From Sulfurospirillum sp. (GTDB lineage Bacteria; Campylobacterota; Campylobacteria; Campylobacterales; Sulfurospirillaceae): 64,000 nt of DNA. Positions 2 through 15,500 of this stretch are shown one piece after another. The notes under the pieces were generated by a model. That model was not told the origin of the DNA and made no database searches. It saw only the letters and a program-made list of their open reading frames with translations. A program made the position numbers and the translations under genes. The stretch is taken from contig JACUTU010000001.1 of assembly GCA_014859685.1 (NCBI GenBank), positions 335,416-399,415 on the forward strand. The letters run 5' to 3'. Positions within the stretch are counted from its first letter, which is position 1, and each line of letters starts with the position of its first letter.

Positions 2-1576
2 AAGATAGTTTTTGACAAGATAAAAGCAGTAGTCAAAGAAGAGATGGATAAAAGCGGTGCCAACGAGATCCAAATGGGCGTTGTAACCCCTGCTGATTTG
101 TGGCGTGAAAGTGGACGCTATAGCATTTTTGGAAAAGAGCTTTTGCGTTTTCAAGATCGTAAAAACAATGAATTTGTACTTGGACCCACACATGAAGAAG
201 TAGTTGTGGATATAGTAAAAAATCGAATCACCAGTTACAAACAATTACCGCTACATCTTTATCAAATTACTACAAAATTTCGTGATGAAGCAAGACCTAG
301 ATTTGGATTATTGCGAGGTCGTGAATTTACCATGAAAGATGGTTATAGCTTTCATAAAAATGAAGCAAGTATGCGAGAAGAATTTGCACATATGGAGCAA
401 ACTTATACAAAGATTTTTACAAGATTAGGACTTGATTTTAGAGCAGTTGATGCAGATAGTGGCGCTATTGGCGGTAGCGGTAGCAAAGAGTTTATGGTAT
501 TGGCTGATAATGGCGAAGATGATATAGTTGTGTGTGAAAAATGCTCGTATGCAGCGAATGTTGAAGCGGCCAAAAGAGCAAAACAAACTTGTCAGATTGA
601 GCCACCACAAGCAGAATTTGCGAAATTTCATACGCCAACACCTGTAAAAGATAGCATTGCACATATTGCAACATTTTTTAAAGTTGATCCATTTTATACG
701 ATCAAATCAGTTATAAAAAAAGCCATTTATGAAGATCGCGAAGAGATTATCGCATTTTTTATTCGCGGAAACGATACCTTGCAAGAAACAAAAGCACAAA
801 ATGCTTGTGGTTCGCTTGACCTTGTTGATGCGAGTGAAGAGGAGCTTTTAAGCATTGGGCTAATCGCTGGCTTTTGTGGCCCTTTGAAGCTACCAGAAGA
901 TGTGCAATTTTTTATTGATGAAGAGTTGCGAGATGAAAAAAATCTTATCTGCGGGGCAAATGAAGACCAGTACCATTTTGTAGGCGTACATGTAGTTAAC
1001 TTTAATGAAGCACGGTATAAAGATTTGGTTGCTGTTCGAATTGGTGATATTTGTCCTTGCTGTGGTGCGTCACTTGGCATAACTAAGGGAATTGAAGTTG
1101 GACATATATTTCAACTAGGACAAAAATACGCAAGTGCAATGCAAGCAACATTTTTAGATGAATTTGGTAAATCTCAAGCATTTTATATGGGATGTTACGG
1201 CATAGGTGTGAGCCGTTTGGTAGCTGTGATGATAGAAGCAAGTCATGATGAGGCTGGATGTATTTGGAATAAGCAAACTACACCATTTATGCTCGATATC
1301 ATCATCTCAAATATCAAAAACGAATCAGATGTACGCTTTGCTACAGATCTGTATGAAAATTTGTCTGCTAGCGGTTTTGAAGTATTGTTGGATGACAGAG
1401 CTGAGCGGTTTGGTGTGAAGATAAAAGATTTTGAACTTATGGGATTTCCTTATGCACTCATCGTTGGTAAAGGGCTTGCAGAGGGCAAAGTTGAATTGGT
1501 TGATCGAAAAACTTTAGAAAAAACAAGCTTACATGTAGAAGATTTGCAAGCACAACTTAAGGAACTACTCTCTTGA
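2..1576 (+). CDS. proS: Prolyl-tRNA synthetase, 5'-partial
   Basis: Class II aminoacyl-tRNA synthetase that charges tRNA-Pro in the cytoplasm. The frame is open from base 2 through the first in-window ATG at 44, and the residues before that ATG (KIVFDKIKAVVKEEMDKSGA) match the conserved region just after the usual start. The true start therefore lies upstream of the window, with roughly 50 residues missing. Motif 2 is seen in RFGLLRGREFTMKDGYSFH. An editing insertion domain occupies the middle (about residues 200-350 from the in-window ATG), as in bacterial-type ProRS. Motif 3 is GCYGIGVSRLVAVMIEA. A C-terminal anticodon-binding domain follows (DDRAERFGVKIKDFELMGFP). The stop codon overlaps the TTG start of fxsA (TTGA), so the genes are probably co-transcribed. 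Confidence 0.97.
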   Translation, partial: KIVFDKIKAVVKEEMDKSGANEIQMGVVTPADLWRESGRYSIFGKELLRFQDRKNNEFVLGPTHEEVVVDIVKNRITSYKQLPLHLYQITTKFRDEARPRFGLLRGREFTMKDGYSFHKNEASMREEFAHMEQTYTKIFTRLGLDFRAVDADSGAIGGSGSKEFMVLADNGEDDIVVCEKCSYAANVEAAKRAKQTCQIEPPQAEFAKFHTPTPVKDSIAHIATFFKVDPFYTIKSVIKKAIYEDREEIIAFFIRGNDTLQETKAQNACGSLDLVDASEEELLSIGLIAGFCGPLKLPEDVQFFIDEELRDEKNLICGANEDQYHFVGVHVVNFNEARYKDLVAVRIGDICPCCGASLGITKGIEVGHIFQLGQKYASAMQATFLDEFGKSQAFYMGCYGIGVSRLVAVMIEASHDEAGCIWNKQTTPFMLDIIISNIKNESDVRFATDLYENLSASGFEVLLDDRAERFGVKIKDFELMGFPYALIVGKGLAEGKVELVDRKTLEKTSLHVEDLQAQLKELLS

Positions 1577-2004
1577 GATACCTCCTTATCTATCTTTTTA
1601 TAGAAGTCTTTGTAAGTGTCAATATCGCTTCATCCATTGGTGCTATGGCAACTTTTTTGGAGATCATATTTACAGCGATTGCGGGGAGTATACTTTTGGC
1701 AAATTTTCGTGTAACTTTGTTTGAGAGTATGCAAGCATTACAAGAAAGAAGTATTAGTATGCGTGATTTTCAAAGGCTCAATGCTTTTACACTTTTAGGA
1801 GCAATATTATTACTTTTACCAGGTTTTTTCACAGATATAATTGGCGTGCTGTTGCAATTTAGCTTCTTTGCAACACTGTTTGCAAAAAAGTTCTTACATG
1901 TAAGACAGGAGCCAGATATTTATAATTCAAATCAAAGACAAATTGACGATGATATCATCGATGTTGAAATAATCGATGAGAGTAATGCACAGAAAAAAAA
2001 TTAA
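1573..2004 (+). CDS. fxsA: FxsA family membrane protein
   Basis: Small integral membrane protein of 143 residues. FxsA of E. coli, when overproduced, relieves exclusion of phage T7 by the F plasmid; its normal role is unclear. Three hydrophobic segments are visible (about residues 1-20, 25-45 and 72-100) with the family loop that follows the second, and the acidic C-terminus (DDDIIDVEIIDE) is typical. It starts with TTG overlapping the proS stop by four bases, with AAGGA upstream. One perfect copy of the TTACATGTAA palindrome lies inside the gene at 1894-1903, read as Leu-His-Val. The FxsA assignment rests on size, topology and the LLLPGFFTDIIG segment. Confidence 0.88.
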   Translation: MRYLLIYLFIEVFVSVNIASSIGAMATFLEIIFTAIAGSILLANFRVTLFESMQALQERSISMRDFQRLNAFTLLGAILLLLPGFFTDIIGVLLQFSFFATLFAKKFLHVRQEPDIYNSNQRQIDDDIIDVEIIDESNAQKKN

Positions 2005-2014
2005 AGGATTGAAA

Positions 2015-2959
2015 ATGCAAAAATTGATTATCGCAACCAGAGAGAGCAAACTTGCTATGTGGCAATCGCTACACATTAAAGAGCTACTTCAAAAAGCGTA
2101 TCCAGATCTTGAAATCATACTCAATCCTATGACTTCAAAAGGCGATCAAATTCTTGATACACCGCTTGCAAAGATTGGTGGCAAAGGGCTTTTTACAAAA
2201 GAACTTGAAGATTCTATGCTTAAAGGCGAATCACACATAGCAGTACATAGTCTCAAAGATGTTCCGATGGAATTTCCAGATGGACTGAAACTAGCAGTAA
2301 TCACAAAAAGAGAAGATGTTCGCGATGCACTTTTGAGCCAAAAATACAAAGATATTGATGATCTTCCAAATGGTGCCGTTGTTGGTACCACAAGCCTAAG
2401 AAGACGGATGCAGATTTTGCGTTACAGACCAGATCTTGTTATCAAAAATTTGCGTGGCAATGTCAATACAAGACTCAGAAAACTCAAAGATGGTGAGTAT
2501 GATGCTATTATTTTGGCAAGTGCTGGGATTAAACGATTGGGACTTGAGAATGAAGTAAACCATTTTACACCGATAAGCACACAAATTATGATTCCTGCGA
2601 TGGGACAAGCGGCGCTTGGCATAGAAATTATCGATACACCTGAAGTTGAACGCATAGTAAGCGTTTTACAAGATGAACAAGCACGCATCGAAACAACTAT
2701 TGAACGAGATTTTGTGCGAGTGCTAGAGGGCGGCTGTCAAGTGCCAATTGGTATCAATGCAAAAATGAGTGACAATCTTGTACATGTAGCATGTATAGTT
2801 GGGCTTCCTGATGGTAGTGAAATACTCCAAGAGAATGTTACATGTGAGGTTGATGAGTATGAAGTTATGGGAACAGAACTTGCAAATATGCTCGTTGAAA
2901 ACGGTGCAAAAGAACTTTTGGTACGCGCTGAAAGTATAGCAATGCACGAAGTTTTTTAA
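2015..2959 (+). CDS. hemC: Porphobilinogen deaminase (hydroxymethylbilane synthase)
   Basis: Cytoplasmic enzyme of tetrapyrrole synthesis: it joins four porphobilinogen units into hydroxymethylbilane for haem. The 314-residue length is normal. The N-terminus (KLIIATRESKLAMWQ), the Lys-rich substrate region (TSKGDQILDTPLAKIGGKGL) and the cofactor-attachment segment LEGGCQVPIGINA, whose Cys carries the dipyrromethane, are all present. A longer reading frame from 1976 exists, but the ATG at 2015 has an AAAGGA ribosome site six bases upstream and gives the standard N-terminus. The gene sits between fxsA and ubiD on the same strand. Haem is needed by the hydrogenase cytochrome b and the nos cytochromes further along. 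Confidence 0.97.
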   Translation: MQKLIIATRESKLAMWQSLHIKELLQKAYPDLEIILNPMTSKGDQILDTPLAKIGGKGLFTKELEDSMLKGESHIAVHSLKDVPMEFPDGLKLAVITKREDVRDALLSQKYKDIDDLPNGAVVGTTSLRRRMQILRYRPDLVIKNLRGNVNTRLRKLKDGEYDAIILASAGIKRLGLENEVNHFTPISTQIMIPAMGQAALGIEIIDTPEVERIVSVLQDEQARIETTIERDFVRVLEGGCQVPIGINAKMSDNLVHVACIVGLPDGSEILQENVTCEVDEYEVMGTELANMLVENGAKELLVRAESIAMHEVF

Positions 2960-2968
2960 GGGAAGATA

Positions 2969-4777
2969 ATGCAACGAATTCTTGATGCACTCAAAGAAAA
3001 AGATCTTTTGCGCGTGATCGATGAAGAGTTAGATATAGATCTTGAAATTCCTCATATCGCTTATGTTGAAGCAAAAAAACCAGATTCAAAAGCACTACTA
3101 TTTACCCATCCTATAAGCAAAAGACTCGATAAAAAATTTGATATTCCAGTGGCTATGAATATCTTTGGCTCCATGCAAGCTATGCAAATGATCTTTGAAA
3201 AACATCCAGATGATATAGCGCAGCAGATTGAAAAACTTTTGCATCTCAAGCCGCCATCTGGTTTTTTAAATAAAATGAATATGCTTGGTGAACTTTTTTC
3301 TTTAAAAAGTGTTTTTCCAAAAAGACTTTCAAGAAGAGGGGCATCGCAAGAAATTGTCTTTGAAGATCCAAATCTATTTGATTTGCCCATTCTCAAAACT
3401 TGGCCACAAGATGGGGGCGCATTTATAACAATGGGACAAGTTTACACGCAAAGTTTAGACGGAACATCGCAAAATCTAGGGATGTATCGATTGCAAGTGT
3501 ATGATGAAAAAAGACTTGGTATGCACTGGCAAATTCACAAAGATAGTGCGCATTTTTTTCATGAATACAAAGAAGCCGGTAAAAAAATGCCCGTATCCAT
3601 AGGTATAGGCGGTGATCCTTTGTATATCTGGTGCGGGCAAGCACCTATGCCAAATGGGATGTTTGAATTGATGCTTTATGGACTTGTACGGGGTAAAAAT
3701 GCAAAACTTGTAAAATCACTTACAAATCCAATTTTCATACCAAACGATGTTGATTTTGTGATTGAGGGGTGGGTTGATCCCGCTTTGAGTATGATTGAGG
3801 GCCCATTTGGTGATCATACTGGCTATTATACACTCAAAGAGCCATATCCAATGATGGCTGTTACTTGTATCACTTCTAAGAAAAATCCTATCTTTCAAGC
3901 TACGGTTGTTGGCAAACCACCACTTGAGGATAAATATATGGGATATGCAACTGAGCGGATATTTTTGCCACTTTTACGCACAACAGCACCCGATCTTATC
4001 GATTATGTGATGCCAGAAAATGGTGTTTTTCATAATCTTATCATTGCAAAGATGAAAACACTCTATCCGGGGCATGCAAAACAATTTATGCACGCTTTTT
4101 GGGGTGTAGGGCAGATGAGTTTTGTGAAGCACGCTTTTTTTGTACCAAAAGATGCACCAAAATTGAGTGATTATGAGGCATTGAGCGATTTTATCTGTGA
4201 TCGCATCAGTCTCAAAAATATCCTCATAAGTGAAGGTGTTTGCGATGCTCTTGATCATGCTAGTCCAAATGCTTGTTATGGCGGCAAGTTGGGAGTTGAT
4301 TGTACAGGCGATAAAGTTGCAAATCACAAAAAAAATTTACTAAAAGACGATGAACTTTATGCTAAAATAACGCTTTTGATTCCTGAGGCTAAAAATCTCA
4401 AACAATATAAACTATACACAAGAACCCCGATAGTAGTTATCTCTATTGAGAAACATCGCTCTACTAAAGTACTTTATGAAGCACTTGCAAGCCTTAAAGA
4501 GCATATAAAACTTGTTATCTTTGTTGATGATGCAAGCAATAGTGTAGATAATGCCTATATGCTTTTGTGGCGAGTTGTGAACAATATAGACGCATTAAGA
4601 GATATCTTTTTGCAAGAGGATTTTATAGGTATAGATGCTACCAACAAATCTCAAATAGACGGCTATACAAGAGAGTGGCCTGAAGATACAAACTGTGACC
4701 CACAGGTTATAAAAAGTCTTCAAGATAGAGGATTTATCACAAAAAACAAGGAGTTTTTAAAAAAATATCATGTCTGA
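2969..4777 (+). CDS. ubiD: UbiD family decarboxylase (probably menaquinone pathway)
   Basis: Prenyl-FMN-dependent (de)carboxylase of 602 residues. UbiD landmarks include an N-terminal domain of about 120 residues, EDPNLFDLPILKTWPQDGGAF, an MH-WQIHKDSA-HFF segment, the EGPFGDHTGYY motif with the catalytic acidic residue, and GGKLGVDCT. In Campylobacterota, menaquinone is made through futalosine, and the UbiD-like protein is thought to decarboxylate 1,4-dihydroxy-6-naphthoate (MqnL role). That specific role is inferred from lineage, not from residues. The start ATG has AAGGGAAG upstream, 9 bases after the hemC stop, suggesting one operon. The length is larger than E. coli UbiD (about 497), as is common in this phylum. 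Confidence 0.9.
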   Translation: MQRILDALKEKDLLRVIDEELDIDLEIPHIAYVEAKKPDSKALLFTHPISKRLDKKFDIPVAMNIFGSMQAMQMIFEKHPDDIAQQIEKLLHLKPPSGFLNKMNMLGELFSLKSVFPKRLSRRGASQEIVFEDPNLFDLPILKTWPQDGGAFITMGQVYTQSLDGTSQNLGMYRLQVYDEKRLGMHWQIHKDSAHFFHEYKEAGKKMPVSIGIGGDPLYIWCGQAPMPNGMFELMLYGLVRGKNAKLVKSLTNPIFIPNDVDFVIEGWVDPALSMIEGPFGDHTGYYTLKEPYPMMAVTCITSKKNPIFQATVVGKPPLEDKYMGYATERIFLPLLRTTAPDLIDYVMPENGVFHNLIIAKMKTLYPGHAKQFMHAFWGVGQMSFVKHAFFVPKDAPKLSDYEALSDFICDRISLKNILISEGVCDALDHASPNACYGGKLGVDCTGDKVANHKKNLLKDDELYAKITLLIPEAKNLKQYKLYTRTPIVVISIEKHRSTKVLYEALASLKEHIKLVIFVDDASNSVDNAYMLLWRVVNNIDALRDIFLQEDFIGIDATNKSQIDGYTREWPEDTNCDPQVIKSLQDRGFITKNKEFLKKYHV

Positions 4778-4855
4778 TATATCGTCGAAACAGCGGTATC
4801 CACATCTTTGGACGCCGCGTAACCCTATAAAAATACAACAAAAAGGATCAGCATT

Positions 4856-5917
4856 ATGAGCCTTTTGTTTGTTTATCTTTTTTTAGCAGTCGGAGTTTCT
4901 TTTCTTTGTTCTATATTGGAATCGGTTCTGCTTTCTATTAACCCCTCACATGTAAGCATAATAAAAAAAGACAATCCAAAAGCGGGCTTGCTTTTGGAAA
5001 AACTCAAAAATGAGATCAATATCTCAATTGCGGCTATTTTGATTCTCAACACCATCGCAAATACACTAGGAGCGGCTGGAGTTGGTGCAGAAGCATCAAA
5101 GATTTTTGGATCTGATTATGTTTTTTACATATCAGTTTTACTTACTTTATTGATTTTGTTTGTTTCAGAAATTATCCCCAAAACTATCGGAGCGATTTAT
5201 TATAAACAATTAGCACCCCGCATTGCTTATATCATACAGTTTTTTATTTATATTACTTATCCACTTATCAAGGTTTCTTTATTTGTAACTAAAAAAATAT
5301 CGCAAGGAAAAAAGGCAAACAAAATAACTCGCGAAGAGTTTATACAAACGATGTTGCTTGGTGAAGATGATGGCGTGATAGATGAGATGGAATCTGATGT
5401 TATAGAAAATCTTCTTAGTCTTGACAAGAGTAAAATTTTTGATATATTGACTCCAAGAAGTGTTGTTTTTGCAATAGATGCCAATACAAAACTCAAAGAT
5501 ATCATTGAAAAAGATGATATTATGCGATTTTCAAGAATTCCTGTATATGAAGAAACTATCGATAATATCATAGGTATAGCTTTTGCAAAGCAGATCTTTC
5601 AAGGCGCCATCTATGATAAATCGATGTTTGTAAAAGAGCTTGTACATCCCGTGTTTTCACTCCATGAAAATATCCCCGTTTCTTATGCACTAGAGATGTT
5701 TATCAAAAGAAAAGAACATATGTTTATAGTAACTGATAGCTACGGACAAACGGAGGGTATCGTTACGCTTGAGGATTGTATCGAAACACTCTTAGGACTT
5801 GAAATCATGGATGAGTGTGATACGACAGATGATATGCAAAGGCTTGCAAAAGAGAAGATGAAGCAAAGAAAAAAAGAGAAAAAAATAATCAAAAAAATTA
5901 CGAAACAAACCCCTTAA
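4856..5917 (+). CDS. CNNM/CorC (hemolysin-like) membrane protein with CBS domains
   Basis: Membrane protein of 353 residues of the family linked to Mg2+/Co2+ efflux or homeostasis. The N-terminal DUF21 domain (residues 1-150) has about four hydrophobic segments, including LFVSEIIPKTIGAIYYKQLAPRIA with the conserved EIIPK. A cytosolic pair of CBS repeats follows (about 190-320: IFDILTPRS, RIPVYEE, FIVTDSYGQTEGIVTLED). The chain ends in a strongly basic tail rather than the usual C-terminal CorC_HlyC transporter-associated domain, so this is a short form. It has a clear AAAAGGA ribosome site, and the next gene follows 15 bases downstream. The substrate is not evident from the sequence. Confidence 0.85.
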   Translation: MSLLFVYLFLAVGVSFLCSILESVLLSINPSHVSIIKKDNPKAGLLLEKLKNEINISIAAILILNTIANTLGAAGVGAEASKIFGSDYVFYISVLLTLLILFVSEIIPKTIGAIYYKQLAPRIAYIIQFFIYITYPLIKVSLFVTKKISQGKKANKITREEFIQTMLLGEDDGVIDEMESDVIENLLSLDKSKIFDILTPRSVVFAIDANTKLKDIIEKDDIMRFSRIPVYEETIDNIIGIAFAKQIFQGAIYDKSMFVKELVHPVFSLHENIPVSYALEMFIKRKEHMFIVTDSYGQTEGIVTLEDCIETLLGLEIMDECDTTDDMQRLAKEKMKQRKKEKKIIKKITKQTP

Positions 5918-5932
5918 AAGGAAAAATATACG

Positions 5933-6529
5933 ATGCGTTTTTCTTATAAAAATCTAATGCAGCGGTTTTTAATACCTAGACCAACGCTCATAGAGTGGCA
6001 GAAAAAAGCAAAAGATGATAAACAAAATTGGAGAGTAAAGCACTTGCAATATTTGCGTGATCAAACCATTATAGAAGAGCAAACAAAAGCTGAGATTCGC
6101 AATTTGCCTTTGGGACTTGAGGATCTCTTTTTGGTGAGCGTGTATCTCTTTTTTTATCCAAAAACTGATTATCTTGATAAGCAAAAACTCAAAAAAGGTT
6201 TGCGAGATTTTGGGCATTCTTGCAGATCTAGCATTGAGTATAAGCATGATTTTGCAAAGAAGATTTGGTCGGTGGATACGATAGATGGTACAGCTCGAAA
6301 AATAGCAAATTATCAAAAAGTTTTTGATATATTTGATAGTTTTACTGCCGCACAGTTTGGACTTTTTATGCACCATATAAGCAATTTTATCGAAACAATT
6401 AATCTTAAGATCTCGCCAACAAAAACAGATTTGCTTGATGGACTTTCATGGCAAGAGCTATACATGTACGATAAATACTTCAGTGACAAAGAGATAGAGA
6501 AATATTTTCACACTCAGGCACTTTTATAA
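5933..6529 (+). CDS. Hypothetical protein, 198 residues
   Basis: I do not recognise this family. The protein is basic and rich in aromatic residues, without a signal peptide or membrane segment. The first 25 residues (MRFSYKNLMQRFLIPRPTLI) look somewhat like a short helix-turn-helix, but that is weak. The middle holds a conserved-looking stretch RDFGHSCRSSIEYKHDFA, and the C-terminal third is predicted helical (FDIFDSFTAAQFGLFMHHIS). It follows the CorC-like gene by 15 bases with an AAAAGGA ribosome site, so it is probably the last gene of that transcript. An AT-rich 77-base gap then precedes tetR. Confidence 0.75.
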   Translation: MRFSYKNLMQRFLIPRPTLIEWQKKAKDDKQNWRVKHLQYLRDQTIIEEQTKAEIRNLPLGLEDLFLVSVYLFFYPKTDYLDKQKLKKGLRDFGHSCRSSIEYKHDFAKKIWSVDTIDGTARKIANYQKVFDIFDSFTAAQFGLFMHHISNFIETINLKISPTKTDLLDGLSWQELYMYDKYFSDKEIEKYFHTQALL

Positions 6530-6606: not shown

Positions 6607-7254
6607 ATGGTCGATGCCTTCCAAAATACACATACATTTGATGCAAATGAACAAGTAATACCCAATAAAAAATCCAAAAAGATGGAGCAGATACTAGAAG
6701 TTGCACTTTTGCTTTTTTCAAAAAAAGGCTTTTTTGCAACTACTATGCCCGATATTGCTAAAGCTATGAAGATGAGTGTCGGCAACTTTTATAACTATTT
6801 TAGCTCCAAAGAATTTTTAGCAAAAGAGTTGTTGCGATACTCTTCAAATATCCTCGGCGCACAAATACGAAAAGTAAACGAGAGTGATTGTTCCACAAGA
6901 GAAAAAGTAAAAAGAATTGTGCATCTTTACTTTAAAATAATCGATCAAAAACCCCAACATATTAACTATTTTTTGCGTGTATATCTCACAAACAAAGAAA
7001 TTTTTAAAGATGGTTGCGAGGGGATGATATGCGTTTCTTCATTTGTTACAGAGATGATGATATTTTTTGAAGAAGGTGTGCGTAAGGGAGATTTACGCAA
7101 TCAAGATTTTTTTGTAGCATTTGGGCTTTTTATGGGATATCTTGGAGGATTTGCTTTTTTAAAAAGCGAAGATGTTCTAGAAAAAAATATCCTTGAATAT
7201 GTTGATGATATAGCCCAAAACATCTATTTTGCATTGTGTGTTCATGAGGATTAA
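6607..7254 (+). CDS. TetR family transcriptional regulator, first gene of the small-hydrogenase operon
   Basis: DNA-binding repressor-type protein of 215 residues. The TetR helix-turn-helix is clear at about residues 23-70: KMEQILEVALLLFSKKGFFA, then TTMPDIAKAMKMSVGNFYNY, then FSSKEFLAKELL. The C-terminal ligand domain carries several Cys residues (ESDCS, DGCEGMIC, FALCVH). A 20-residue N-terminal extension precedes the usual start of homology; the chosen ATG has TTAGGA seven bases upstream. Its 3' end overlaps the following hydrogenase small-subunit gene, so regulator and hydrogenase are translated from one message. This suggests it controls hydrogenase genes, perhaps through the palindrome at 9583. 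The ligand is unknown. Confidence 0.9.
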   Translation: MVDAFQNTHTFDANEQVIPNKKSKKMEQILEVALLLFSKKGFFATTMPDIAKAMKMSVGNFYNYFSSKEFLAKELLRYSSNILGAQIRKVNESDCSTREKVKRIVHLYFKIIDQKPQHINYFLRVYLTNKEIFKDGCEGMICVSSFVTEMMIFFEEGVRKGDLRNQDFFVAFGLFMGYLGGFAFLKSEDVLEKNILEYVDDIAQNIYFALCVHED

Positions 7255-8143
7255 AGCAAAAAGTACCATACTTTGGCTACAAGGGCTTACATGTAATGGT
7301 AACAGCCACTCCTTTTTTAATTATACGCATATGCAAAGTTTTTCAAAAAACTTCACATTTTTACACCATCCACAAATTGCTACAAGATATGAATTGCAAG
7401 AACTCATATCTACTGATATACAGATAGATTTTTTAGTTTTAGAAGGTGCTTTAAGTCACAATGAAGAGATACTTTCTCGCTTTGGTTTGGGATTTGATGT
7501 AATTTTGCAAAATCTCATACCACGAAGTCGTTATGTGATTTGTGCTGGAAGTTGTGCCTCTTTTGGGGGTATTTTTAGGCTCAATAATCCAAAAGAGATT
7601 TTCGGAGCTTGTTTCAGTGGCAAGCAAGAGGGTGGATATTTTGCACAAAAACAAGCCAATATCATCAATATTCCCGGTTGTCCTATGCATCCAAAATGGT
7701 TTGTTGATACACTGATGCAACTTCGCGTGCATGATACAATTTTGCTTGATAGTTATAACCGTCCAAAAGAGATTTTTGCGTATCTCGTGCATCATGGCTG
7801 CTTGCGAAATGAGTATTTTGAATGGAAAGTGGATTGTAAAGATTTTGGACTCAAGGAGGGATGTTTGTTTTATGAGCATGGTTGCCAAGGTCCTATGACA
7901 CATGCAAATTGCAATAAAATACTCTGGAATGAAACGAGTTCAAAAACGCGTGTTGGTTCTGCGTGTCTTGGCTGTACTGAGTTTGATTTTCCAAAACTTG
8001 CACTCTATGAAACACAAAAAAATATGTCACTCCCACAAACTCCATTTGGTATCTCTCGAAGGGCGTATTATTCTTTGGCAGGAGTTGCAAAGGGCTTTAA
8101 GATAGAGCGATTACAACAAAGGCTTATGTGTGAAGATAACTAA
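7244..8143 (+). CDS. [NiFe]-hydrogenase small subunit, cytoplasmic group 2-like
   Basis: Electron-transfer subunit, 299 residues from the ATG at 7244, with no Tat signal and no membrane anchor, so a soluble cytoplasmic protein. Iron-sulfur ligands: Cys17 (GLTCNGNSHSF), CAGSCASFGG, NIPGCPMHP, then HHGC, EGCLFYEHGCQGPMTHANC and GSACLGC for distal and medial clusters. The second proximal-cluster Cys expected at position 20 is Asn (CNGN instead of CxxC). A TTG start at 7229 is also open, but the ATG places Cys17 at the family number. The gene overlaps tetR by 11 bases and the large subunit by 14. The type resembles group 2 enzymes (HupU/HoxB sensors or the group 2d of Aquificae and Campylobacterota); sensing versus catalysis cannot be decided here. 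Confidence 0.9.
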   Translation: MRIKAKSTILWLQGLTCNGNSHSFFNYTHMQSFSKNFTFLHHPQIATRYELQELISTDIQIDFLVLEGALSHNEEILSRFGLGFDVILQNLIPRSRYVICAGSCASFGGIFRLNNPKEIFGACFSGKQEGGYFAQKQANIINIPGCPMHPKWFVDTLMQLRVHDTILLDSYNRPKEIFAYLVHHGCLRNEYFEWKVDCKDFGLKEGCLFYEHGCQGPMTHANCNKILWNETSSKTRVGSACLGCTEFDFPKLALYETQKNMSLPQTPFGISRRAYYSLAGVAKGFKIERLQQRLMCEDN

Positions 8144-9464
8144 AGAGATCATACAAAAGATTGAAGGCGAGGCGACGCTTGAGCTTGAATGGAAAGAGGG
8201 GAAGATTGCATTTGCAAAGATCAAATTCCTTAACTTTAGAGGTATTGAAAATATCCTCAAAAAAAGACCTTTTTTAGATGCTATAGCGATCACGCCCCGA
8301 GTTTGTGGCATATGTAGCACTTCTCATACACTAGCTTCCATAAGTGCAATAGAAGATGGCTATAAAAATGCGGGATATGCTATAGAAATTCCTCGTAAGG
8401 CACAACACATACGCGAAATAGTGCTTAATGCTGAGAAAATTCAGAACCATATAAAATGGTTTTATTTCAATATCTACCCAGAATTGATCGCCATTGATAG
8501 TGGAAAAAATGTTTATGCTTTTGAGGATTTTACATGGCAAAATGCCCAAAAAATCATCACAAAAACGATGCAGATGGCAGCTATCTTTTGCGGACAGTGG
8601 CCACATGCTTCTTTTTGTATCATAGGTGGCGTAACTACAGACCCGCTCAAAGAAGACTTACAAGAAGCTAGTATGCGGCTTGAAGAAATTATTACATTTT
8701 GTGAACAGGAGATTTTTGGCGTTTCATTGGAAGAATTTTTAGAAAATGATACAAATATGCAGATCATGGCAAGTTCTGCTATGCTCAAAAGAGCGATAGA
8801 ACTTTTACATAAAAACAACTTTGACTCACTTGGAAAGAGTTATGATAGATTCATAGCATTTGGCGAGAGTTTTTTATATGCAAGCCCCTCTAAATGCACA
8901 GGCACAATTGTGGCGAATGCAGATGTAAAATTTGTACGAGAAGATTTGCGTCACACTTTTTTTCAACCAGATGGTTATACTTATTCTAAAAGTGCTGTAT
9001 ATAAAGAAAAATTCTATGAAACAGGCCCGTTAGCCCGCTTGATGGTCGCTAAAAATCCTCTCATAAAAGATTTTCATCGAAGATACAAAGATGCTACGCT
9101 CACACGCATTGTGGCTAGAGTGAGTGAGATAGCACATCTTTTGCAAAGAGTGAGGGAGTTGCTACAAAAGATAGATATAAAAGAGTCTTCATGTAATTTT
9201 CCAAAGATAAAATACCAATCCATCACCACGCAAGGCACGGGAGTTATAGAAGCTGCTAGAGGTTCACTGATTCATACTATAGATATACAAAATGGGTTGA
9301 TTAGCAAATACGACATCATCACACCAACTGTCTGGAATTTGGGAAATGGCACGCCAAAAGAGCCTTCTGTTGCACAAAATGCTATCATCGGAATGGATTC
9401 TGTCACAAATGCAGATTTTATTTTTAAAAGCTTTGATGTCTGCTCCGTTTGCACGACACAATAG
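8130..9464 (+). CDS. [NiFe]-hydrogenase large subunit, cytoplasmic group 2-like, without C-terminal extension
   Basis: Catalytic subunit of 444 residues, about 140 shorter than HydB downstream. The N-terminal nickel motif RVCGICSTSH (Cys59, Cys62) and the C-terminal pair Cys438/Cys441 are present. The protein ends three residues after the last Cys (DVCSVCTTQ), so there is no peptide for a maturation protease to remove, as in regulatory HupV/HoxC-type subunits. The usual DPCxxC is DVCxxC, and the terminal His that helps bind a structural metal is Gln. It has a GTG start overlapping the small-subunit gene. Together with tetR it forms a three-gene operon directly before hydABC. Confidence 0.9.
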   Translation: MKITKEIIQKIEGEATLELEWKEGKIAFAKIKFLNFRGIENILKKRPFLDAIAITPRVCGICSTSHTLASISAIEDGYKNAGYAIEIPRKAQHIREIVLNAEKIQNHIKWFYFNIYPELIAIDSGKNVYAFEDFTWQNAQKIITKTMQMAAIFCGQWPHASFCIIGGVTTDPLKEDLQEASMRLEEIITFCEQEIFGVSLEEFLENDTNMQIMASSAMLKRAIELLHKNNFDSLGKSYDRFIAFGESFLYASPSKCTGTIVANADVKFVREDLRHTFFQPDGYTYSKSAVYKEKFYETGPLARLMVAKNPLIKDFHRRYKDATLTRIVARVSEIAHLLQRVRELLQKIDIKESSCNFPKIKYQSITTQGTGVIEAARGSLIHTIDIQNGLISKYDIITPTVWNLGNGTPKEPSVAQNAIIGMDSVTNADFIFKSFDVCSVCTTQ

Positions 9465-9582
9465 CTTAATTCATACATTTTTTATCTTCTTAATTTGCTA
9501 CTTTTTCACTCAAATTTTACTTTTTTTGTCTTGCGCATCTCTTTTATATACCACTATGAATAAAATTTTGTTTTAATATAAA

Positions 9583-9596
9583 TGAATAATCATTCA
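9583..9596. promoter_or_regulatory. Candidate TetR-type operator upstream of hydA
   Basis: The inverted repeat TGAAT-AATC-ATTCA lies 50-63 bases before the hydA ATG, inside the only sizeable AT-rich gap (9465-9645) of the hydrogenase island. Short TGAAT...ATTCA palindromes are typical TetR-family operators. The neighbouring TetR gene makes it the natural candidate regulator. No matching site was found before tetR itself. This is inference from form and place. Confidence 0.4.
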
Positions 9597-9645: not shown

Positions 9646-10809
9646 ATGGAACACGCAGAACTCTATCAAAGGATTTCTGATCGTCTTGGAAATCTTGCGA
9701 AGTTTCCACAAGTCAAGGACAATGAGTCAATTACTGACTTATTGGACAACAAGGGCATTACTCGTCGTGACTTTATGAAATGGGCAGGTGCTATGACAGC
9801 TATGCTTTCGCTCCCATCTTCATTTACACCACTTGTTGCCAAGGCGGCCGAGCTTACAGATCGTTTGCCAGTTATCTGGTTGCATATGGCTGAATGTACC
9901 GGTTGTAGTGAAAGTTTACTACGAACTGACGCACCAACAATTGATGGTTTGATCTTTGATCATATCTCGCTTGAGTATCATGAAACTATCATGGTTGCTT
10001 GTGGCTGGCAAGCAGAACACAATCTTGAGAGTGCCATGGAGAAATACAAGGGCAAATACATCCTTATGGTTGAGGGCGGTATCCCAACAGGAGATAATGG
10101 CAATTTTCTTACTTTAGGGGCTCATGGAACCACAGGTCTTTCTTTGGCGCAAAAAGCATCACAAGATGCAGCGGCAATTTTTGCTATCGGCGCATGTTCT
10201 AGTTTCGGAGGCATACAAGCTGCCGCTCCAAATCCTACAAATGCTAAAGCTTTGAGTAAAGTTACAAATAAACCAGTGATCAATGTTCCAGGTTGTCCTC
10301 CTAGTGAAAAAAATATAGTCGGACAAGTGTTGCATTTTATACTTTTTGGTGCTTTGCCATCAGTGGATCCATATGGTCGTCCAAAATGGGCTTATGGACA
10401 CAGAATTCATGACCTTTGTGAACGCCGCGGACATTTTGATGCGGGTGAATTTGTTGAACAATTTGGTGATGAAAATGCAAAAAAAGGGTATTGTCTTTAC
10501 AAAGTTGGTTGTAAGGGGCCATATACTTTTAACAACTGTTCGAGGGAGCGATTTAACCAACACACTTCTTGGCCAATACAAGCAGGGCATGGTTGTATTG
10601 GATGTAGTGAACCTAGTTTTTGGGACACTATGGGGCCATTTGAAGAGCCGCTTGGCGATAGATTGTATCAAACTATCTTTGGTGAGGGCGCCGATAAAAC
10701 TGCCGATAAAATTGGTGTAGCTTTATTGAGCGCAACTGGAGTAGCTATAGCGGCACATGCGGCTATCGGTATTATAAAAAAAGCTACTTCTAAAAATGAA
10801 GAAGAATAG
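9646..10809 (+). CDS. hydA: Membrane-bound uptake [NiFe]-hydrogenase small subunit
   Basis: Periplasmic electron-transfer subunit of 387 residues. It has a twin-arginine signal (TRRDFMKWAG followed by a hydrophobic stretch, residues 40-67), so it is exported folded with HydB. Fe-S ligands include CTGCSES (proximal), GACSSFGG, NVPGCPPSE, then H, KVGCKGPYTFNNC and GHGCIGC (medial and distal). A C-terminal hydrophobic helix (ALLSATGVAIAAHAAIGII) anchors it to the membrane beside the cytochrome b subunit. It has a strong ribosome site (AGGAGA). It is the first gene of hydABCDE-hypF and matches the Wolinella succinogenes type (group 1b) that feeds electrons from H2 to menaquinone. Confidence 0.97.
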   Translation: MEHAELYQRISDRLGNLAKFPQVKDNESITDLLDNKGITRRDFMKWAGAMTAMLSLPSSFTPLVAKAAELTDRLPVIWLHMAECTGCSESLLRTDAPTIDGLIFDHISLEYHETIMVACGWQAEHNLESAMEKYKGKYILMVEGGIPTGDNGNFLTLGAHGTTGLSLAQKASQDAAAIFAIGACSSFGGIQAAAPNPTNAKALSKVTNKPVINVPGCPPSEKNIVGQVLHFILFGALPSVDPYGRPKWAYGHRIHDLCERRGHFDAGEFVEQFGDENAKKGYCLYKVGCKGPYTFNNCSRERFNQHTSWPIQAGHGCIGCSEPSFWDTMGPFEEPLGDRLYQTIFGEGADKTADKIGVALLSATGVAIAAHAAIGIIKKATSKNEEE

Positions 10810-10822
10810 GAAGGATGATTAG

Positions 10823-12571
10823 ATGAGTAAAAGAATCATAGTTGACCCAATTACAAGAATTGAGGGACACTTAAGAGTTGAAGTTATCGTTGATGATGAC
10901 AACAAGGTTACAGAAGCTTATGCATCATCCACTCTTTGGAGAGGAATTGAAACCATCTTAAAAGGCAGAGATCCACGAGATGCAGGCTTTTTTACACAAA
11001 GAATTTGCGGTGTTTGTACATATTCTCATTACAAAGCAGGTATTCAGGCAGTCGAAAATGCACTAGGAATAGATCCACCACTCAATGCAAAACTTACTAG
11101 AACACTTATGAATGCGGCACTTTTTTTGCATGACCATACAGTGCATTTTTACCATCTGCATGGACTCGATTGGGTAGATGTTGTTTCAGCTTTAAGTGCG
11201 GATCCACGAGCCGCTAGTCAAGAAGCTTTTAAGTACACAGATAGTCCAATTGCAACAGGCGAAGATGAACTTGCCGCGGTACAAAAAAGAGTGGCGGAAT
11301 TTGTAAAAAAAGGACACCTTGGGCCATTTGCCAATGCTTATTGGGGACATCCTACTTATAAACTTACACCAGAACAAAACCTCATCGCTGTTTCTCACTA
11401 TCTAAAAGCATTGCAGATGCAAAGAACAGCTGCACAAATGATGGCAGTATTTGGCGCAAAACAACCACACCCACAAAGCCTAAGTGTTGGTGGTGTTACA
11501 TGTATCATGGATCTCAAAACGCCAACAAGACTTGCTGAATACCTCCAAAAATTCCAAGAGATGGCTGATTTTGTGACAAGAGCCTATTATGCAGATGTTG
11601 TGATGGCTGGTGGTGCTTACGCAAACGAGCCTAGTGTTACGGGTGGTTTGGGCGTAGCAAACTTGTTTACACATGAAGAATTTCAGATCAATAGCCATGA
11701 ATTTTTATTTGAAAGTGGCGTGATGATGGCTGAAGATGTCATAAATCTTATCAACGGCGTAGCATATAATGTGCAAGATCTTGATGAAACAAAAATCACA
11801 GAAGAAGCCATCCATTCATGGTATGAAGATGATGAACCACTCCATCCGTACGATGGTAAAACAAATCCAAAATACACAGGTTTTAAAGACGCAGAAACAA
11901 TCAATGATAAGGGCGTGCTTGCACCATCAAAAGTGATCCGTGAAGATGGTAAATATTCGTGGGTAAAATCACCTCGTTATGATGGCAAACCACTTCAAGT
12001 TGGTCCTTTGGCAAATATCGTTGTAAATTATGCAAAAGGCAATAAAAGAGTTCAAAAAGCGGTTAATGATTTTCTTGCAAAAACAGGTTTACCGATCGCT
12101 ATAGTCGCTTCTACGCTTGGTAGAACTGCTTGCCGTATGCTTGAAACAAAGATCATTGCAGATCATGCGCTTGAAGCTTTTAACGCACTTATTGAAAATC
12201 TCAAAGTTGATGAATCTACTTTTACAACTTATGATATCGATCGAAACAAAGAATACAAAGGTCGTTATATCGGGCATGTTCCACGAGGAGTGCTTAGCCA
12301 TTGGGTTCGCATCAAAAATGGTGTGATTGAAAATTATCAAGCAGTTGTTCCAACTACATGGAATGCAAGTCCAAAAGATGCTCAAGGACAAAGAGGTTCT
12401 TATGAGGAATCACTTATCGGCTTAAAGATAGCAGATCTATCGCAACCTCTTGAAATTGTTCGTATTATCCACTCTTATGATCCATGTTTGGCATGTGCTG
12501 TACATGTAATGGACACAAAAGGCAATGAACTAAGCAATTATAAAGTAAATCCAAACGGTACTAGTTGCTAA
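10823..12571 (+). CDS. hydB: Membrane-bound uptake [NiFe]-hydrogenase large subunit
   Basis: Catalytic H2-splitting subunit of 582 residues. The nickel ligands are RICGVCTYSH (Cys62, Cys65) and DPCLACAVH (Cys555, Cys558). After the His there is a 21-residue C-terminal extension, expected to be removed by HydD once nickel is inserted; this contrasts with the extension-less large subunit at 8130. The N-terminal RIEGHLRVEV motif is canonical. It has no signal of its own and is exported with HydA. The gene lies 13 bases downstream of hydA with AGGAAGG as ribosome site. Confidence 0.97.
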   Translation: MSKRIIVDPITRIEGHLRVEVIVDDDNKVTEAYASSTLWRGIETILKGRDPRDAGFFTQRICGVCTYSHYKAGIQAVENALGIDPPLNAKLTRTLMNAALFLHDHTVHFYHLHGLDWVDVVSALSADPRAASQEAFKYTDSPIATGEDELAAVQKRVAEFVKKGHLGPFANAYWGHPTYKLTPEQNLIAVSHYLKALQMQRTAAQMMAVFGAKQPHPQSLSVGGVTCIMDLKTPTRLAEYLQKFQEMADFVTRAYYADVVMAGGAYANEPSVTGGLGVANLFTHEEFQINSHEFLFESGVMMAEDVINLINGVAYNVQDLDETKITEEAIHSWYEDDEPLHPYDGKTNPKYTGFKDAETINDKGVLAPSKVIREDGKYSWVKSPRYDGKPLQVGPLANIVVNYAKGNKRVQKAVNDFLAKTGLPIAIVASTLGRTACRMLETKIIADHALEAFNALIENLKVDESTFTTYDIDRNKEYKGRYIGHVPRGVLSHWVRIKNGVIENYQAVVPTTWNASPKDAQGQRGSYEESLIGLKIADLSQPLEIVRIIHSYDPCLACAVHVMDTKGNELSNYKVNPNGTSC

Positions 12572-12591: not shown

Positions 12592-13272
12592 ATGATAAAG
12601 AAAAGATTATTATCGTATGAATTGTCTACGAGTTTACGCCTTACGCATTGGCTAAGAGCTGTTTCTATTGTCGTTTTGATAATGAGCGGATTTTATTTAG
12701 CATATGTATTTGTAACTCCAGGGCATTCAAATGAGCCGATTTTATTTCTCAATGCGAAAGTGAGGATGTGGCACATCATAGCTGGATTTTTGTTGATTTG
12801 TGTTACTATTTTTAAGATTTATTTAATCTTTACAGATAAGTATAGTATCCGTGAAAGAGTATCTTTTTTGGATTTTATCAATCCAAAAATATGGTTTTAT
12901 CAAATCAGATATTACCTCTTTTTAGGAAAGCATCCTGAATTAAAGGGAATTTATAATCCTTTACAATTTGCTACGTATGTTTTCTTATATTCTATGGTTA
13001 TTTTGATTGCACTTACTGGTTTGATTTTGTATATGCATGTGTACCATCACGGACTTGGGGGTTATTTGTACGATATCTTAAGACCTGTTGAAGCGTGGAT
13101 GGGTGGACTTGCTATGGTGCGACAAATCCATCATCTAGCTATGTGGCCGATCATTATCTTTACAGTTGTACATGTATATATGGCGGTATTTAACTCTGTT
13201 ATGGGTCGAGATGGATCAATCGATACGATCATCAGCGGCTATAGGTTTTACAAACCAGAAAAAAAACACTAA
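12592..13272 (+). CDS. hydC: Hydrogenase cytochrome b subunit
   Basis: Di-haem cytochrome b membrane anchor of the HydABC complex, 226 residues, passing electrons from the small subunit to menaquinone. Hydrophobic helices lie at about 18-40, 63-85, 130-150 and 185-205. Histidines fit haem ligation (TLRLTHW near the N-terminus as LRLTHWLRA, HIIAGF in helix 2, HHLAMWPIIIF and VVHVYMAVF in the last helix). An earlier TTG at 12565 is open, but the ATG at 12592 has AAGGAAA upstream and gives the family start. Downstream of hydB by 20 bases. Confidence 0.95.
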   Translation: MIKKRLLSYELSTSLRLTHWLRAVSIVVLIMSGFYLAYVFVTPGHSNEPILFLNAKVRMWHIIAGFLLICVTIFKIYLIFTDKYSIRERVSFLDFINPKIWFYQIRYYLFLGKHPELKGIYNPLQFATYVFLYSMVILIALTGLILYMHVYHHGLGGYLYDILRPVEAWMGGLAMVRQIHHLAMWPIIIFTVVHVYMAVFNSVMGRDGSIDTIISGYRFYKPEKKH

Positions 13273-13283
13273 AAAGGATTTTT

Positions 13284-13823
13284 TTGAAAATCTTAGTGTT
13301 AGGCATAGGCAATGTGATGTTCTCCGACGAAGGCGTCGGAGTGCATCTTTGCAGATTGATGGAAGAAAAATACAAGTTTACTTCAGGTACGCACACTCTT
13401 GATTTTATCGATGGCGGCACCCTCGCTCATGCACTTATCCCTATTATTGCGCAGTATGAATACTGTATCATTTTCGATACGGTTGATGTTGATAATGCAA
13501 ATATAGGCGATGTGTACTTTTTTGATTTTGAGCAAATTCCTGCTGGCGTGAAATTTCAAGGTAGCGTGCATGAGGTTGAAATGTTGCATACTTTAAGCAT
13601 GATGGATCTAGTTGGTGATCGACCGCCAACCAAAATCATCGGCATAGTCCCAGAAGTTATCGCTGAGACAACTTTACAAATGACACAAGCAATCATCAAG
13701 AGTTCAGCATTGATGGAACAAACATTTTTATCACATATGAAAGAACTAGGTTTTACATGTGAGTTACAAAAAGAGATAGGCATTCAAGAAGTCGCCAATA
13801 AATCCTGCCAACAAGAGAGATAA
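13284..13823 (+). CDS. hydD: Hydrogenase maturation protease
   Basis: Endopeptidase (HycI/HupD family), 179 residues, expected to cut the C-terminal extension of HydB after nickel insertion. The family opening VLGIGNVMFSDEGVGVHL contains the acidic nickel-binding Glu of GNxxxxDEGxG; a second acidic site (DFIDGGT) and VEMLHTLSMMD follow at the expected places. Start TTG with AAGGA five bases before it, 11 bases after hydC. The group 2-like large subunit in this island does not need it because it lacks an extension. Confidence 0.95.
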   Translation: MKILVLGIGNVMFSDEGVGVHLCRLMEEKYKFTSGTHTLDFIDGGTLAHALIPIIAQYEYCIIFDTVDVDNANIGDVYFFDFEQIPAGVKFQGSVHEVEMLHTLSMMDLVGDRPPTKIIGIVPEVIAETTLQMTQAIIKSSALMEQTFLSHMKELGFTCELQKEIGIQEVANKSCQQER

Positions 13824-13826
13824 GAT

Positions 13827-15500
13827 ATGATACTGTCCTTTGAATTTCATTACAATGCAAACAATGGTGTATTGGAAAATTTACTCCAGTGTATTTGTGA
13901 AGATTTTGTCATTGTTTATGCCATAAAACGCACAGGTGTGCTTGTACGGCTTGATGTGCAGGCTTCGCAAGAACAATTGATGGATTTTTCAGATTTTCTT
14001 GCACAAAGATTGCCTTTGTCTGTGTTTTTTAATGCTTCAATCGTGCAAGGCGTTTTACAAATGCAAGAACATACACAGATAGAAAAGTGCAATCTTGTAT
14101 TGCCTTTTACGCCAAAAACTTTGCAAAATGCACAAGGCAATCCTTTTTTTGCCAATGAAATCGGCATAAATCCTTATGAAAAGGTCGAAAGATTATTATT
14201 AAGAGACAAGGTTGGCAAAACACTTGCAAAAGCAGATGATACAACAAGTTTTGAAAGTCTTTTTGAAAATGTTGCCACCTTGCTTGATGCTGGAAAAAGT
14301 GTAGCGATCTGTAGTGCTAGCGGGGATTTTGTTTATACAAAAGTGGATGTAAGCACCAAAAAGAGAGTAGGGCAACTTGATGATATACTCGCTACTGATT
14401 TAAGTGTGGTCGAAAAGATGGTTGTGATTTATGACAATGAGATCAAAGCACTCGCATCGCTTGAAAAACCATCATTGCGTCTAAGACTTAATTCGCTCTA
14501 TGAGGCAAAAGAGATTTTACAAACTACACGCGTAAACTTGTCCCTTCCAAAAGATATGGTTATCTATCTGCTTTGTGTTGCGCTTATGAATCGAGGCATT
14601 GGATTTTTAGCGATGGAACACTTAGGAGGTGAGAATTTTGATGTGCAGCTTAGATGCGATGGGATTATCACAAAAATTCCACAACTATGCGTAAGCGTTT
14701 TGGAAAATGGTGTTATCATCATACGAGATGGAGATGGTTATGCCAATGCAAATCTCAAAGAAAACCTCAAAAAATTTGAACACAGAGCGTACGCACAGTT
14801 TTCAAGTATTTTGCAAGAACATAACTTGTTTGCTCAACCTAGTATCTGCTTTTATCACAGCAAAACGCACGATGATATGATTATGCATTTTAATGATGCC
14901 ATAGGACTTGTGGAGCTTGTGAAGTTTTCTATACAGTTTTCAAATATACAAGAGATTTTTGATGCTATAAGCTCAAGTGCGACTGGCAAAAAAATGGTTG
15001 CAAATTATAAAGAACAGTTTGCTTCTATCTACGCAAATGCTGCCAATACGCAGTTGCACGCATTGCCACAAAATATCTATAGCATGTGGGGTGTGCTTGC
15101 GGTTATATTGGGTATCGCTCAAAGTGTAGAGCAAGGAAGTATGGCTGTGATGGAAAATGCGGAGGATTTTGGCGGTGATAGGGGACCTCGGATAGATTAT
15201 TTTCGCAATGATGAAAATGCTCTATTGAGTCAATTTAATTTTGTAGCTTTTGTGCGGAGTGCTATGAGTTTCAAACTCGCTGGTGCGCAAAAGATGGTAC
15301 TCAGTTTTGGAATTGTTGAAGCGATGAGCTTTTTTATCGGTGATTTGAGTGATTATTTTGTTCAAAAACTCAATGCAAAAGATATCTTACTTGCAGGTTC
15401 ACTTTTTGGTTCAAAAAGATTTACGACACTTACATGTAAGAATGTTGGCGCAAATCATCAGATCCGCTTCAACAAAGAACTTCCGATTGATTGTCCATAA
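13827..15500 (+). CDS. hydE: HydE-like hydrogenase accessory protein, HypF/Kae1-related C-terminus
   Basis: A 557-residue protein in the position of Wolinella hydE. I do not recognise strong catalytic motifs. The C-terminal part (about residues 390-557) has weak resemblance to the Kae1/TsaD-like end of HypF: KDILLAGSLFGSKRFTTLT compares with [12 protein letters not shown] of HypF. A middle stretch (EIKALASLEKPSLRLRL) resembles part of the HypF YrdC region. No zinc-finger Cys pairs are present. It could be a degenerate HypF paralogue used as a scaffold in maturation or quinone reactivity. One perfect TTACATGTAA copy is at 15430-15439. The spacing of 3 bases after hydD implies coupling. Confidence 0.7.
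   Translation: MILSFEFHYNANNGVLENLLQCICEDFVIVYAIKRTGVLVRLDVQASQEQLMDFSDFLAQRLPLSVFFNASIVQGVLQMQEHTQIEKCNLVLPFTPKTLQNAQGNPFFANEIGINPYEKVERLLLRDKVGKTLAKADDTTSFESLFENVATLLDAGKSVAICSASGDFVYTKVDVSTKKRVGQLDDILATDLSVVEKMVVIYDNEIKALASLEKPSLRLRLNSLYEAKEILQTTRVNLSLPKDMVIYLLCVALMNRGIGFLAMEHLGGENFDVQLRCDGIITKIPQLCVSVLENGVIIIRDGDGYANANLKENLKKFEHRAYAQFSSILQEHNLFAQPSICFYHSKTHDDMIMHFNDAIGLVELVKFSIQFSNIQEIFDAISSSATGKKMVANYKEQFASIYANAANTQLHALPQNIYSMWGVLAVILGIAQSVEQGSMAVMENAEDFGGDRGPRIDYFRNDENALLSQFNFVAFVRSAMSFKLAGAQKMVLSFGIVEAMSFFIGDLSDYFVQKLNAKDILLAGSLFGSKRFTTLTCKNVGANHQIRFNKELPIDCP

Follow-up and report, generated by a model that had tools for sequence, protein, structure and literature searches.

The window, a stretch of 64,000 nucleotides from a Sulfurospirillum sp. 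genome, carries a gene cluster in the order tetR, hupS, hupL, hydABCD(E) and hypF, in which the end of each gene of the tetR-hupSL part overlaps the start of the next and a gap of 181 nt follows hupL (Table 1). The ATG of hupS overlaps tetR by 11 nt and the GTG of hupL overlaps hupS by 14 nt, so that the overlap between regulator and hydrogenase genes described in the first-pass annotation, which had been made from the sequence alone, is borne out. Among the loci compared, that of Sulfurospirillum sp. UBA12182 (L034) is the closest named relative. HydC is presumably the cytochrome b subunit, a family name taken from its position. Two ORFs of the region, one at 5933-6529 (198 aa) and one at 13827-15500 (557 aa, HydE-like by position), matched no Pfam or NCBIfam family at the threshold applied. 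The same annotation had placed tetR upstream of hydABC and in the same message; the upstream position stands, but since the 181-nt gap contains a predicted operator of its own, hydABC probably has its own promoter and is likely to form a transcript separate from tetR-hupSL. As a sigma-70 scan of the window revealed no consensus promoter before hydA, the position of this promoter is uncertain.

Table 1. Genes and predicted elements of the tetR-hupSL-hydABCD region (positions within the window)
Feature	Description	Position	Strand	Basis
tetR	TetR-family regulator, 215 aa, FadR-like fold	6607..7254	+	TetR_N E=7e-14; AlphaFold; Foldseek; ortholog position
Cys137 and Cys142 codons	motif GCEGMxCV, alpha6-alpha7 loop / start of helix alpha7	7015..7032	+
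hupS	soluble [NiFe] hydrogenase small subunit, 299 aa	7244..8143	+	NiFe_hyd_SSU_C E=5e-23; Oxidored_q6 E=4e-19
hupL	[NiFe] hydrogenase large subunit, 444 aa	8130..9464	+	NiFeSe_Hases E=4e-46
predicted TetR operator	TAAATGAATAATCATTCA, upstream of hydA	9579..9596	.	sole exact genome match to TRAATGANTANTCATTYA; PWM score 23.3
hydA	periplasmic uptake hydrogenase small subunit, Tat signal; predicted target operon	9646..10809	+	TIGR00391 E=5e-160
hydB	uptake hydrogenase large subunit, with C-terminal extension	10823..12571	+
hydC	presumed cytochrome b subunit; predicted target operon	12592..13272	+	position, sequence, conserved order
hydD	maturation protease-like gene (name inferred), target operon	13284..13823	+	position, conserved order

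The hupSL products have the hallmarks of a [NiFe] hydrogenase, namely a large subunit with four nickel-binding Cys residues, which are kept in all full-length orthologs, and a small subunit with conserved Fe-S ligands, in which one proximal-cluster Cys position is occupied by Asn (CNGN) in the window protein. A Tat motif is present in HydA and absent from HupS, in agreement with the soluble enzyme proposed in the first-pass annotation. The large subunit had likewise been said to lack a processing peptide, and HupL indeed ends (SFDVCSVCTTQ) immediately behind the CxxC nickel ligands, an ending shared by every full-length ortholog examined, indicating that it is made without a maturation peptide. 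A soluble heterodimer with such a large subunit is characteristic of group 2b sensory hydrogenases, and the trait is common to group 2d too. HupL is related to the Aquifex and Campylobacterota HupL proteins and can thus be referred to as group 2d, a name taken from the designation of its relatives in PMC12286921 and not from HydDB. In a quick HupL tree, the Aquifex and Hydrogenobacter proteins that lack a TetR partner cluster together beside the TetR-linked ones. Outside the Sulfurospirillaceae, median identity to the window proteins is 60% for TetR, 46% for HupS and 40% for the fast-evolving HupL, which in Nautiliaceae (L065-L076, L107-L111) is cut down to about 385 aa with all active-site Cys retained.

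The regulator possesses the N-terminal helix-turn-helix (TetR_N) and the all-helical fold of the TetR family; the AlphaFold model is confident (pLDDT 87.5), and FadR of Bacillus subtilis and B. halodurans are among its best Foldseek matches. The protein contains four Cys residues (95, 137, 142 and 211) rather than the five or so counted at first, and solely Cys137 and Cys142 are conserved. This pair occurs in 78 of 79 ortholog rows, the remaining row being gapped there, and in all 36 sequences of alignment A1. In the model it lies at the start of helix alpha7 (residues 138-159), beside the least certain loop. Most TetR paralogs (37-48% identity) are devoid of one or both residues. Invariance among orthologs together with the frequent absence from paralogs points to a role in thiol, metal or redox chemistry that may be specific to the hydrogenase-linked TetR, and the earlier idea of a redox-TetR link gains from it. 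Among the TetR paralogs of L182 (G052 C21:19787) and L176 (G065), one is accompanied by an operator-like site next to its gene and two are arranged in tandem behind hydE.

The first-pass annotation had made its reading dependent on the conservation of tetR beside this hydrogenase, and the pair is kept across the Campylobacterota. TetR orthologs (54-76% identity) are encoded directly 5' of hupSL in Sulfurospirillaceae, Arcobacteraceae-type genomes, Sulfurovum, Nitratiruptor, Nautiliaceae and further families. The Hydrogenothermaceae locus L054 has the same arrangement; the Aquificaceae locus L053 starts too near hupS to contain a whole tetR. The spacing of tetR and hupS is -34 to +6 nt, an overlap or direct abutment, in 79 of 82 loci, far beyond chance. 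Among 120 relatives, 62 have both tetR and hupL and 55 have neither; hupL occurs alone in a single fragmented MAG (G027) and tetR alone in two genomes, G012 and G098, the contig of the latter ending inside hupS. A similar distribution was found in 104 genomes from the family to which G109 belongs, which we infer to be the Arcobacteraceae (both genes, 63; tetR only, 3; hupL only, 1; neither, 37). In four related vent genomes (G011, G017, G020 and G023; L169-L172) an apparent loss of tetR was rejected, as the gene is still present and has been relocated directly upstream of hypF. In G012 (L173, about 8600-8700), hupSL has been deleted naturally, leaving tetR, a 3' remnant of hupL and the hydA operator; the possibility that tetR is broken there was discarded, since the TAG codon precedes an open frame holding the conserved protein and only hupSL is deleted.

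Comparison of the regions upstream of hydA revealed an 18-bp palindrome, TRAATGANTANTCATTYA, which is present in 78 of 79 non-redundant hydA upstream regions, the only exception being a second, distant hydA-like gene in L107. The null rate in Markov shuffles was 0.7%. Upstream of the other genes the palindrome was found rarely (tetR, 5/66; hupS, 1/80) or not at all (hydB, 0/77; hydD, 0/56), so that autoregulation of tetR through this site was rejected for most loci. A 17-bp seed for the position weight matrix (PWM) mixed two palindrome registers and gave weaker results, and 18 bp were used instead. No exact match other than the hydA site exists in the 2.1-Mb genome to which the window belongs; sites with one or two mismatches elsewhere in this genome are near chance (6 versus 3 for the reversed control), and the two that were inspected lie inside coding regions. 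When no more than one mismatch is allowed, Sulfurospirillaceae genomes nearly always have one site, located at hydA.

Since the PWM was trained on tetR-linked loci, three tests were made on other sequences. The site precedes hydA in 58/58 loci with tetR and in 3/31 genomes without it (Fisher p=4e-20, a value that ignores shared ancestry). The three exceptions are close Sulfurospirillaceae; in G006 the site is intact, and in G010 and G035 one half has decayed, a pattern to be expected if the regulator was lost recently. Of 20 held-out Arcobacteraceae loci, one of which (L256) duplicates a training-set genome, 18 show a site upstream of hydA with a score of 12.5 or more. Where such loci have two hydA genes, the site precedes each of them (8/8), and hydA copies distant from tetR (L214, L227, L228 and L230) have it as well. 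Loci L237 and L240, which exhibit the palindrome at both hydA genes, resemble the A. butzleri genome, where a single cluster contains hupSL and two membrane hydrogenases (PMC2147049). Within the Aquificota, the tetR-positive locus L054 has sites before hydA, before hypD and at the head of an operon (1141-6493) in which nickel-transport-like genes are followed by nikR, hypB and then tetR-hupSL; L053 has one site between hypD and a nickel-transport-like gene, and seven loci without tetR have no site above 10. G026 contains both the tetR-hupSL module and the operator.

The close tracking of the predicted operator with tetR strongly supports a link between TetR and hydABC, and TetR very probably regulates the uptake hydrogenase operon through the palindrome. 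The placement of the site is suited to repression: where promoters are clear, it occupies the -35/-10 spacer in some Nautiliaceae and the start point (+1) in other Nautiliaceae, Nitratiruptor and the Hydrogenothermaceae. For S. multivorans, a tetR gene preceding hupSL has been described and its product proposed to repress hupSL (PMC5357620), the only publication retrieved by a full-text search for TetR and hydrogenase in this group; the arrangement in this species was thus already known, and for the operator, the breadth of the linkage and the Cys pair no paper was found. That TetR mainly represses its own hupSL operon, the hydA palindrome belonging to another factor, would account for the silent hupSL of S. 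multivorans and for the few loci with operator-like sites upstream of tetR, but it is improbable given that 61 of 66 loci, the window included, have no palindrome upstream of tetR and that the hydA palindrome is missing where tetR is.

Following from regulation of hydABC by TetR is the question of the signal. According to the model considered here, dimers of TetR would bind the palindrome at the hydA promoter and repress hydABC, and HupSL, produced from the same operon as tetR, which lacks an operator, would serve as the H2 input. When H2 is present, HupSL would oxidize it and act on TetR by contact or by passing electrons to Cys137/Cys142; TetR would then release the operator, allowing hydABC to be transcribed. 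We moderately favor HupSL as the H2 input, a role suggested by gene linkage and co-occurrence. A direct step from HupSL to TetR, by contact or by electrons to the Cys pair and with no intermediate, is proposed more tentatively and is somewhat doubtful. For the model as a whole, with tetR-hupSL as a regulatory module for hydABC in which HupSL senses H2 and TetR represses, the balance is close to even and tips slightly in its favor.

Published data bear on the model from both sides. H2 sensing or a link to ferredoxin has been attributed, without proof, to the group II/2d enzymes of these bacteria (PMC4584964, PMC2628731). In S. denitrificans, no soluble H2 uptake is observed although the 2d gene is transcribed (PMC4584964), which we count in favor of HupSL as a sensor. 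The transcriptome of A. butzleri hDNRA1 also fits the model: with H2, transcripts of both group 1b sets rise 2-6-fold and those of the 2d genes decrease (PMC12286921); in this comparison, however, electron donor metabolism changed as well as H2, which counts against the sensor model. Expression of hynAB in Sulfurospirillum hDNRA2 showed no difference between H2 and formate, and formate itself yields H2 (PMC12286921). The main counter-evidence comes from S. multivorans, in which hydB is constitutive, with no significant effect of H2, and hupL is almost untranscribed (PMC5357620). A silent tetR-hupSL would leave hydABC unrepressed, which is in line with TetR as a repressor and lends no support to H2 sensing.

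It might also be considered that TetR regulates hydABC but that its Cys pair senses a thiol oxidant, persulfide or sulfide, nickel or another small ligand, HupSL being an ordinary low-potential hydrogenase in a shared operon that, for example, reduces ferredoxin for the reverse TCA cycle. All operator evidence fits this explanation equally well, redox TetR repressors acting through Cys residues are known (RcrR, CssR), nickel uptake belongs to the predicted Aquificota regulon, and HupSL has kept its catalytic residues and clusters. G012, which has kept tetR and the operator after deletion of hupSL, and the Aquifex and Hydrogenobacter HupSL, which lack a TetR partner, are regarded as catalytic enzymes and have been proposed to reduce ferredoxin, likewise count against the sensor model. 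Still, we regard this explanation as rather doubtful, since in complete genomes tetR almost never occurs without hupSL, nor Campylobacterota hupSL without tetR, and since the tetR-hupSL promoter has no operator, as expected of a constitutive sensor; the missing soluble H2 uptake in S. denitrificans (PMC4584964) points the same way.

The first-pass annotation had also remarked that no kinase is encoded in the cluster, and neither a HupT/HoxJ kinase nor a HupR/HoxA regulator gene was identified in that of the window. The genome holds 37 HATPase_c domains, all of them elsewhere and none within about 25 kb of hupL, through one of which HupSL might signal to a response regulator, with tetR as an independent layer; as no kinase gene accompanies the cluster, this is highly improbable. 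Taken together, the initial interpretation is partly supported. Its furthest extension, that a group 2d hydrogenase exerts direct control over a TetR repressor, through complex formation or electrons to Cys137/Cys142 and with no kinase, across two phyla, and so governs the uptake hydrogenase genes and in Aquificota also hyp and nickel uptake genes, is a possibility that we hold at less than even weight. If a hydrogenase does signal straight to a repressor, this would represent a new, portable way of reading H2 that might be useful for biosensors.

Several known systems resemble parts of this module. The classical sensor HoxBC acts with the kinase HoxJ and requires continuing H2 oxidation (PMC10073562). 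Like the group 2b sensors of HoxBC-HoxJ-HoxA (Cupriavidus necator) and HupUV-HupT-HupR, HupSL is a soluble heterodimer without a C-terminal maturation peptide; those sensors control uptake hydrogenase synthesis, a role only proposed for HupSL. In contrast to them, HupSL has no adjacent kinase, its candidate output is a one-component TetR protein, its relatives are classed as group 2d, and HupL, as judged from the alignment, carries a Glu in place of the Asp found near the active site of the sensor. The Aquifex-type group 2d HupSL (hydrogenase III) has a large subunit about 40% identical, the same hupS-hupL order and no maturation peptide, but neither a TetR neighbor nor operator sites in the loci examined, and its proposed role is to supply the reverse TCA cycle with electrons, whereas the window HupSL is proposed as H2 input. 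Bacillus FadR, which binds an operator of the form TGAATGAnTAnTCATTCA with the same architecture as the hydA palindrome, is similar to TetR in fold (Foldseek TM 0.66-0.85) and weakly in HMM comparison; the window TetR differs in its predicted regulon and its invariant Cys pair and scores far below the curated FadR cut-off. Finally, control through Cys residues is established for other TetR repressors such as RcrR, CssR and NemR; these proteins respond to oxidants, whereas in the case of the window TetR the electrons would be supplied by a hydrogenase.
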